Under the pieces are notes generated by a model. That model did no database searches. It was not told the DNA's origin and saw nothing but the letters and a program-made list of their open reading frames with translations. From NCBI GenBank assembly GCA_947629715.1, contig CANRET010000002.1, positions 1 to 64,000 of the forward strand: a stretch of 64,000 bases of DNA, read 5' to 3'. The stretch's first letter is position 1. The number at the start of each line of letters is the position of its first letter. Below are positions 61,491-64,000 of the stretch, one piece after another. The DNA is from an uncultured Akkermansia sp. (GTDB lineage: Bacteria > Verrucomicrobiota > Verrucomicrobiia > Verrucomicrobiales > Akkermansiaceae). Both the position numbers and the translations under genes were made by a program.

Positions 61491-61749
61491 AAATGAAGTA
61501 TGCTTCCTATTTTTCGGGCGGATAATACGCCGATTTATTCGGATGTCAAGTTTGAATTGACATAAAGTTTCGTTTTCACTCGTGTCCCAACAGAAGCGCG
61601 CCCTGTCGCCGAGGTCGGGAATTGACCAAAACCATGAGGCGAAATCACTGCCACCGCCGCCCCATCGGCGGTTCGCCCCTGTCGGGACAACGCATGCACG
61701 TTGTAAATCGTAAATAGGCAAACGCGTTTTCTCATGCGCCTGCCCCGGT

Positions 61750-61903
61750 GGTTGCATCCATCCAAAATAAGGGCACGTTGAAAAAAGTTGAATTTTGCGT
61801 CAAATTTGCCCCAAATTCAACGCAAATTCAACATGCTGTCTCTGCTATCTATTGATAATCTGGCTATTCAACCATGCGAAATTCTGCGTCAATTCCCTTG
61901 ACA
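61750..61903 (+). repeat. 154-bp direct repeat, copy 1
   Basis: Identical to 63684-63837 at 152/154 positions (differences at 61754 and 61773). Confidence 0.97.
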
Positions 61904-61926
61904 GCATCCCCTCAGAGTGATACAGT
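61898..61926 (+). promoter_or_regulatory. Putative promoter of the AlbA_2/HATPase gene
   Basis: TTGACA (61898-61903, last 6 bp of repeat copy 1), 17-bp spacer, TACAGT (61921-61926). Confidence 0.55.
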
Positions 61927-61934
61927 ATGAGCTG

Positions 61935-63704
61935 ATGAAGGAGGAAACGACATTGGAGCACATCCTCTCCAAGCTGCTCACAGCGGGAGAAAATGAGGTG
62001 ATAGAGTTCAAGGAAGCCCATAAAGGGAAAGGACCGGACTTTATCGGAAAGTATGTGTCGGCTCTGAGCAACGAAGCGAATTTACGTGGGGTGGATTTCG
62101 GCTGGCTTTGTTTTGGCGTGGCGGACAAGCCAAAGGGAAACACGAGCTCGCGTCTGGTCGGCACTCATGCGATCATCGACCAAAACCTGAAGTACGAGAT
62201 ATCTCGGAATACGACCAACAACCTCACGATTCGCGAGGTTCTGGAGGGGATTGTGGAGGGAAAGCGCATCCTGATCCTCAAGATACCGGCTGCGCCGCGC
62301 GGCATGCCCATCGCTTGGGACGGCAAATTCTACGGAAGAAACGGTGATAGTCTGACCACACTATCGACTGATAAATATGATGAAATACGGAGGCAAAGCG
62401 GGATATACGATTGGTCTTCCGAAATATGCCCTCAGGCAAGCTTGGCGGATCTCGATGAGAGAGCCCTCGCTCTCATGCGCGAAAAATACGCCATCAAACA
62501 ACGCAACGAGGACTTCCAAACCCTGCCGCCGGAAAACATGCTCAGCGATCTCGACCTCATGCGCAACGGGGGCATCACCAACGCCGCAGTGATTTTAGCG
62601 GGCAGGAAAGAGTTCATCCAACAACACTACCCCAACGCGGCTATCCGCCTCGAGTACAGGGAAAGCGAAGCCGATATCGCCTTCCTCAACCGAATCGCTT
62701 ACGAAGAGGCCTTCTTCCTCTCCATCGACAAACTCTGGCACGATATCAACATCCGCAACATCAGCATCCCGATTTCTGACGGTCCCTACATTTTTCAGGT
62801 CCACTCGTTCAATGAGGCGGTCATGCGCGAGGCTATTTGCAACGCGGTCGCTCACCGGGATTACCGCATTGCCAGCGAAACTCTCATCAAGCAATATCCC
62901 CATAAAATCACCATAACGAATGCCGGAGGTTTCCCCCCGGGCGTTACAACGGACAACCTGCTCACTGTTCCCAGCACACCTCGCAACCGGCTGCTTTCTG
63001 ACGTCATGGCAAAGACAGGTCTGGTCGAACGCTCCGGTCAGGGCGTCGATAAAATCTACAGAAATACCCTCTCGGAAGGCAAGCCTGCCCCGGATTATGG
63101 AAACAGCAATTCCCAGATGGTGGAACTCGTCCTCTCAGCCGCTGTCGTCAACAAGCCTTTCGCCATCTTCATTGACGAAACGCAGCGTCGCCTCTCTCCC
63201 GAAAACAAAATGTCCGTCTTCGAGATCATCGCCCTCGATAAGGTGCGGGGTGAAGAATATGATGAAGTGCCTCGCTCCATGCTCCAAAAACTCCTCAAAA
63301 AGGGCGTCATCGAAAAAAGCGGTGCCACGAAAGGGACGAGATATTATCTCGCAAAGCGCTATTTTGAACTCGCTAATGATGTCCCCGGCTACATGAACAA
63401 GCGAAAGGACTGGGATCCCTCCCTCTCCATCCCTCTTGTCAGTGTTTTCCTGAGCGAGCATGATGGCGCCAGGTTCAAAGATATTGAAAAAGCGTTCGAT
63501 GGACATCTTTCTACCAAGCAGGTCAGAACTCTTCTCAGGAATCTTCTCCTTCAACACGTGATTTTCACCAGTGGTAAATCCTCCGGCACGCGCTATCACC
63601 TCGCCCGAGAAAATCGCATCGCCGCAGATTTATACATGGATGCTCTGAAAATTGGCATGTCTGTTCTGGAAAAACAGGCGAGCGGTTACATCCATCCAAA
63701 ATAA
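61935..63704 (+). CDS. AlbA_2 (Schlafen-like) plus HATPase_c_4 domain protein with C-terminal winged-helix-like region
   Basis: GENEVIEFKEAHKGKGPDFIGKYVSALSNEANLRGVDFGWLCFGVADK; EAVMREAICNAVAHRDY; ITNAGGFPPGVTTDNLLTVPSTPRNRLLSDVMAKTGLVERSGQGVDKIY. Confidence 0.9.
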   Translation: MKEETTLEHILSKLLTAGENEVIEFKEAHKGKGPDFIGKYVSALSNEANLRGVDFGWLCFGVADKPKGNTSSRLVGTHAIIDQNLKYEISRNTTNNLTIREVLEGIVEGKRILILKIPAAPRGMPIAWDGKFYGRNGDSLTTLSTDKYDEIRRQSGIYDWSSEICPQASLADLDERALALMREKYAIKQRNEDFQTLPPENMLSDLDLMRNGGITNAAVILAGRKEFIQQHYPNAAIRLEYRESEADIAFLNRIAYEEAFFLSIDKLWHDINIRNISIPISDGPYIFQVHSFNEAVMREAICNAVAHRDYRIASETLIKQYPHKITITNAGGFPPGVTTDNLLTVPSTPRNRLLSDVMAKTGLVERSGQGVDKIYRNTLSEGKPAPDYGNSNSQMVELVLSAAVVNKPFAIFIDETQRRLSPENKMSVFEIIALDKVRGEEYDEVPRSMLQKLLKKGVIEKSGATKGTRYYLAKRYFELANDVPGYMNKRKDWDPSLSIPLVSVFLSEHDGARFKDIEKAFDGHLSTKQVRTLLRNLLLQHVIFTSGKSSGTRYHLARENRIAADLYMDALKIGMSVLEKQASGYIHPK

Positions 63705-63837
63705 GGCCACGTTGAAAAAAGTTGAATTTTGCGTCAAATTTGCCCCAAATTCAACGCAAATTCAACATGCTGTCTCTGCTATCTATTGATAATCTGGCTA
63801 TTCAACCATGCGAAATTCTGCGTCAATTCCCTTGACA
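63684..63837 (+). repeat. 154-bp direct repeat, copy 2 (overlaps the 3' end of the AlbA_2 gene)
   Basis: 152/154 identical to copy 1; contains the gene's last codons GYIHPK-stop. Confidence 0.97.
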
Positions 63838-64000
63838 TATTTACCTGTGCTACACCTTTGCCGTCGGGACAAACGCATTTGAGAGAGGTCAATCAACGGA
63901 GAAATACTCTTATTGACTGATATCACCGTTTATACGCATCAAACATCGTGACAGCAATCGCACTTGGGCAGACCCCGTTCTGCCACCGTTGTACCTCGTA

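Follow-up and report, generated by a model that had tools for sequence, protein, structure and literature searches.

In the 64,000-nucleotide (nt) stretch of Akkermansia DNA analyzed here (the window), which comes from a draft genome (G000) of 2.2 Mb in 116 contigs, a single gene of a predicted defense type is enclosed by two copies of a small noncoding repeat, designated R. This cargo gene is probably a passive cassette that is moved by homologous recombination between R copies and has no transposase of its own. No dedicated mobility enzyme is indicated, so the word cassette names a behavior here and not an integron-type system. The evidence, all of it read from sequence, comprises the repeats themselves, the occurrence, at a single locus end, of states with one R and with two, the shuffled contexts of R, the lateral spread of the gene, and the concerted evolution of R. 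The features of the region are as follows.

61652 to 61704, no strand assigned: left hairpin module of a dispersed Akkermansia family that matches dozens of places in related genomes.
61705 to 61749, forward strand: LE, a TCGTAAAT lead followed by a variable-stem hairpin, the left context common to R copies of G016, G064, and G078.
61750 to 61903, forward strand: R1, comprising a gene tail remnant, a core with a palindrome, and TTGACA.
61750 to 61770, forward strand: remnant of six codons (GCIHPK) and a stop, either left by an upstream copy of the gene that was lost or produced through gene conversion from R2.
61787 to 61832, no strand assigned: R1 palindrome of 46 nt, the best-conserved part of the R family.
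61898 to 61926, forward strand: predicted promoter, with the -35 element TTGACA from R1, 17 nt, and TACAGT with an extended TG.
61938 to 61944, forward strand: Shine-Dalgarno sequence AAGGAGG, preceding the likely TTG start at 61953.
61953 to 63704, forward strand: cargo gene, encoding a Schlafen AlbA_2-GHKL ATPase-wHTH protein of 583 amino acids.
61989 to 62357, forward strand: SLFN_AlbA_2 domain with the motif ENEVIEFK.
62886 to 63119, forward strand: HATPase_c_4 (GHKL) domain, from Pfam.
63684 to 63837, forward strand: R2, overlapping the 3' end of the cargo gene.
63721 to 63766, no strand assigned: R2 palindrome.
63867 to 63957, forward strand: RF, a MITE-like dispersed repeat of ~95 bp that lies just right of R2 and belongs to a separate family.

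A repeat search of the window recovered R1 and R2 as a direct pair of 154 nt with a spacing of 1,934, for which the chance expectation is ~1e-76 pairs, and bore out the match at 152 of 154 positions described in an earlier, sequence-only reading of this DNA. The sole mismatches (G at 61754 versus A at 63688, and G at 61773 versus C at 63707) both sit near the left end, the 121-bp core is identical, and divergence is immediate on either side of both copies. That reading was also correct that R2 includes the final six codons of the cargo gene (GYIHPK) with its stop codon and that R1 carries GCIHPK and a stop with no gene body upstream. Its proposal that the TTGACA of R1, at 61898, serves as a -35 element is strengthened by TACAGT at 61921 to 61926, which is separated from it by 17 nt and has an extended TG, and this spacing recurs in G016, G077, and G078. 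The cargo gene probably starts at the TTG codon at 61953. An assembly artifact is an unlikely source of the repeat pair, because the contig is 93 kb long with unique flanks and because R-gene-R is also the layout in G016, a separate genome whose R copies are only 92.6% alike. Other repeats lie close by. Repeats of the RF family occur in 13 genomes of the same clade; a first look gave as many as 128 candidates in a genome, of which at most ~11 were scored, and the window's own genome has five copies. The hairpin modules (61652 to 61749 of the window and L028:2150-2940) consist of runs of TCGTAAA or TCGTACA heptamers followed by stems of varying sequence, sometimes in tandem arrays of ~112 bp (e.g., G078:C5).

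The earlier identification of an AlbA_2/HATPase gene is upheld by Pfam, which assigns the domains SLFN_AlbA_2 (8.8e-12) and HATPase_c_4 (1.9e-16) to the cargo protein. In a search of the PDB with an AlphaFold2 model (18 sequences; mean pLDDT, 77.5; pTM, 0.57), 3lmm was the only full-length match, and winged-helix folds appeared further down with weak E values. The order of AlbA_2 and GHKL domains found by Pfam, together with a C-terminal wHTH predicted from the model, places the protein among the Schlafen-GHKL-wHTH proteins. Fusions of a Schlafen RNase with a minimal histidine kinase and a wHTH are widespread BREX accessories (PMC12839542), and their domain order is the same as that of the Akkermansia protein, but the BREX-type relatives lie inside multigene defense operons, whereas the Akkermansia gene stands alone between R repeats. 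Relatives at 30 to 40% identity lie in type III restriction-modification (R-M), BREX (PglX/PglZ), and type I R-M operons. By analogy with these operons and with the proteins described in PMC12839542, the cargo protein is predicted to act in phage defense, likely through abortive infection. Viral contigs contained no relative of the cargo gene, and a literature search for AlbA_2 cassettes or Akkermansia intergenic repeats returned nothing on point. Direct repeats were rejected as a general trait of the AlbA_2/HATPase family, since most relatives lack them. In a Clostridiales relative (L061), a direct repeat of 227 bp at 98% identity flanks the gene on both sides. In Chlorobiaceae (L034, L035, L036, L041, L043, and L072), a related gene lies between the type III Mod and Res genes, a second copy (~85 bp) of the C-terminal end of Mod, with a ribosome site, precedes the next gene, and this copy is fused behind a Res-like N-terminal scar; these repeats, in which the end of a type III methyltransferase gene has been duplicated, are a phenomenon distinct from R.

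R, an AT-rich repeat, is dispersed within one Akkermansia clade. The 154-bp query had matches in 5 of 59 relatives, all within Akkermansia, and a profile built from 18 copies found ~25 strong copies, which are spread over 11 of the 76 Akkermansia genomes; the repeat is thus not found only here, nor is the two-copy arrangement fixed, a pair of findings that would together have counted against the cassette proposed from the sequence alone. R was absent from the phages and plasmids searched, and the exact palindrome was absent from viral contigs. The 121-bp core runs from GTTGAAAAAAG to CAATTC and has the 46-nt palindrome at its left. R has a G+C content of 39%, versus 56% for the window. The mean identity between copies is 89.6% in the palindrome half and 67.5% in the right half, the latter occurring as two types, A and B, that are only ~56% alike. 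Most R copies have no cargo gene beside them; therefore, R was not made for this gene alone, and the view of the repeat as part of this gene's unit alone has to be given up. At most loci, R lies against the ends of convergent genes. A role as a terminator was rejected since no terminator-like match falls on R, a conserved RNA structure was rejected given the weak covariation support for the stem, and Rfam held nothing relevant for R. Single R loci show further rearrangements: in G008, R lies within a 283-bp tandem duplication (L020:7382-7790), and three R copies in both orientations occur elsewhere with a 723-amino-acid AlbA_2 protein between them (L019:6550-11714). At the c18 locus of G020:C1 (L209), the left flank of R is kept to TTATTGAAAAAA and diverges at the palindrome start.

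The cargo gene itself is present in four genomes, namely, the window's own, two with copies at 96% protein identity, and one with a contig-end fragment at 94%. R lies directly upstream of the gene in all four. It also lies directly after the stop codon in the window and in G016; in G078, no R directly follows the gene and the next one is 0.9 kb on, and the G077 contig breaks off within the gene. The loci all differ: an island between MarR and the SRP RNA gene in the window, the end of a polysaccharide operon in G016, the vicinity of an acyltransferase-family gene in G078, and a position after a HAD/FolB gene in G077. Empty sites with one repeat, which the sequence-only reading had suggested looking for, were found beside the same epimerase gene at the end of the polysaccharide locus, where the arrangement is LE-R in G008 and G064 but LE-R-gene-R in G016. 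The difference between G016 and the other two genomes is one unit, gene plus one repeat, at an existing repeat; the site is syntenic over 2.6 kb at ~90% on the epimerase side and over only 55 to 65 bp on the LE side. No relative offered an R-free counterpart of the exact window junction against which a target-site duplication outside the repeats could be recognized; in G020, ~290 bp separates MarR from the SRP RNA gene, and neither R nor the island is present. No intact multiunit array, circle, or strain-level polymorphism was seen among the R-bearing genomes, which are draft assemblies, one per species, in which short contigs may be misbinned.

The cargo gene spreads laterally, as its identity between species at fourfold-degenerate sites far exceeds that of core genes. 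Between G000 and G016, the identity at these sites is 90% for the cargo gene versus 67% for an RND pump, 59% for a membrane fusion protein, and 57% for c17, and between G016 and G077 it is 92% (over an 86-codon fragment) versus 44% for c17, a contrast that misbinning of short contigs could inflate; in G077, the cargo gene and c17 are on the same contig.

Each of the left contexts of R (LE and gene tail) is found together with each of its right contexts (gene promoter, epimerase end, and type B half), six combinations in all, which indicates that exchange at R has happened; the gene tail is additionally combined with the window's own right flank. Junctions of the form tail-R-promoter are found in the window (R1) and in G008, and they are the trace expected if a tandem array had collapsed or a circle had integrated, so that the earlier suggestion of an array or its survivor is supported to the extent that these two junctions may reflect a former array, although no intact one was seen. 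The R1 and R2 cores are 100% identical to each other but only 93.4, 95.9, and 87.6% identical to the upstream R of G016, G078, and G077, respectively, and this identity within the window, set against differences of 4 to 12% from other genomes, indicates that R copies are homogenized by concerted evolution. Many R copies carry 5'-truncated gene tails, and the tails left before R are always short (4 to 47 of 589 codons), which is not predicted by plain deletion. An old tandem duplication followed by decay, with R being the promoter/terminator region of the gene family and no mobility continuing, might also produce the tail-R-promoter junctions of G000 and G008 and the many truncated tails, and it would agree with the position of R against convergent gene ends. 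We consider it unlikely, given the four unrelated loci of the gene, its similarity between species far above that of core genes, the existence of one-R and R-gene-R states at one site, and the identity of the R1 and R2 cores.

If the gene is instead, as is more likely, a passive cassette moved by homologous recombination, its transcription unit would start in one R, which supplies the -35 element, and end against another R. RecA-type recombination between the R copies would delete the gene and leave one R, and it would also insert the gene at another R, or join it there in tandem, as a circle or as incoming DNA; RecA is presumably the enzyme, and a circle or imported DNA the presumed intermediate. 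The same recombination would homogenize the R copies, and the gene would thereby be carried between species into variable polysaccharide and defense islands. Because homologous recombination explains the loss, the gain, the junctions, and the homogenization, a special enzyme is unnecessary. The inserting cassette envisaged in the sequence-only reading is supported in its behavior, with gain and loss at R (G008 and G064 versus G016), four loci, and lateral sharing, with no sign of an enzyme dedicated to its mobility.

A Pfam scan of 30 proteins near R or R loci found no integrase or transposase. The integron integrase model TIGR02249 had no match over the cutoff in the 11 R-bearing genomes, weaker matches occurred also in all 14 control genomes, and no RYYYAAC...GTTRRRY box pair in attC order is present at R1 or R2; an integron cassette was therefore rejected. 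A Xer/pdif module was rejected because the window holds no dif-like 28-bp site at up to 3 mismatches, the best near R1 having 13. The RAYT/Y1 transposase (PF01797) is present in 50 of 76 genomes of the genus and absent from all 11 R-bearing genomes, and an IS200/IS605 or REP-RAYT element was rejected on this ground. R, at 154 bp, contains no transposase gene and is thus not an insertion sequence, as the flanking repeats of a composite transposon or IS26-type unit would be. Given the many tyrosine recombinases encoded in these genomes, exchange at R may be catalyzed by an enzyme supplied in trans. A dedicated site-specific recombinase encoded elsewhere could recognize the R palindrome, perhaps as a hairpin, and insert or excise the gene with one R in an integron- or Xer-like manner. 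The stronger conservation of the palindrome half, its folding (better than most shuffles; z, -2.4), the chimeras of types A and B that switch in or just after the palindrome, the break of the G020 c18-side sequence exactly at the palindrome start, and the tyrosine recombinases are consistent with such an enzyme. Yet no recombinase was among the proteins scanned at R loci, the searches for an integron integrase, attC order, and dif sites were negative, covariation gives the stem weak support, and the low similarity of the type A and B right halves would confine homologous recombination to the palindrome half as well. We thus regard this explanation as quite improbable, and the stronger proposal that R is the site of a novel Akkermansia recombination system, site specific and perhaps hairpin recognizing, that shuttles single defense genes like an integron without an integrase, as more doubtful still.

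Several known systems resemble the arrangement favored here, a gene moved passively by recombination between R copies. IS26 translocatable units and pseudo-compound transposons (PMC4894685 and PMC11102541) likewise have a gene between directly repeated copies, a unit made of the gene and one repeat, targeting of an existing copy, and one- and two-copy states, but R is ~130 bp, noncoding, and free of a transposase, and its recombination is presumed to be of the RecA type. Integron cassettes (gene plus attC) share the single gene followed at once by a palindromic element and the cassette-like gain and loss; in contrast, R occurs without an integron integrase over the cutoff, its box order (GTTRRRY...RYYYAAC) is that of attC reversed, and it also lies upstream of the gene, providing the -35 element. 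The pdif/dif modules moved by XerCD (PMC12907356) also have short recombination sites that bracket genes and carry accessory cargo, whereas R is a long direct repeat with no 28-bp dif-like site in or near it. R is dispersed, palindromic, and intergenic like REP/MITE-type repeats, but the R-bearing genomes lack RAYT, and nothing that was seen marks R as the terminus of a self-mobile element. With solo-LTR formation, it shares the origin of single copies from recombination between direct repeats.

Defense genes adjoin several R loci, that of the window among them. The window's copy belongs to a 5.7-kb island between MarR and the SRP RNA gene, and beyond the window end, on contig C2, lie a SocA-like (SocA/Panacea-like) gene (64351 to 64935) and a Septu pair, PtuB (65053 to 65718; 9.6e-58) and PtuA (65715 to 66938; 9.8e-98), a stretch corresponding to L017:7352-9939 (C2, 64351 to 66938). 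Other R loci adjoin AbiL (G064 and G025), HEC-01 (G096), a Lamassu LmuB-like protein (G016), an OLD/Gabija-like ATPase (G068), or another AlbA_2 gene (G070 and G008), and our impression is that R loci are enriched beside defense genes. This setting, with the window's gene in an island with Septu and a SocA-like gene and many R loci in defense or polysaccharide islands, is what would be expected if whole islands moved as conjugative, phage, or transformation DNA and R were a bystander. That explanation is very unlikely in our view: the contigs on which Septu homologs occur at other sites in G020, G064, G068, and G070 yielded no R, which indicates separate movement of the parts; the gene borders coincide with R in different islands; and viral contigs yielded no relative of the gene, and phages and plasmids no R.

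The passive cassette described here provides a concrete and testable case of a single defense-type gene that spreads between species by means of a small noncoding repeat, with no mobility gene. If this is general, dispersed repeats would be an overlooked route for the trade of defense genes among gut bacteria, and R could predict where variable islands form in Akkermansia.
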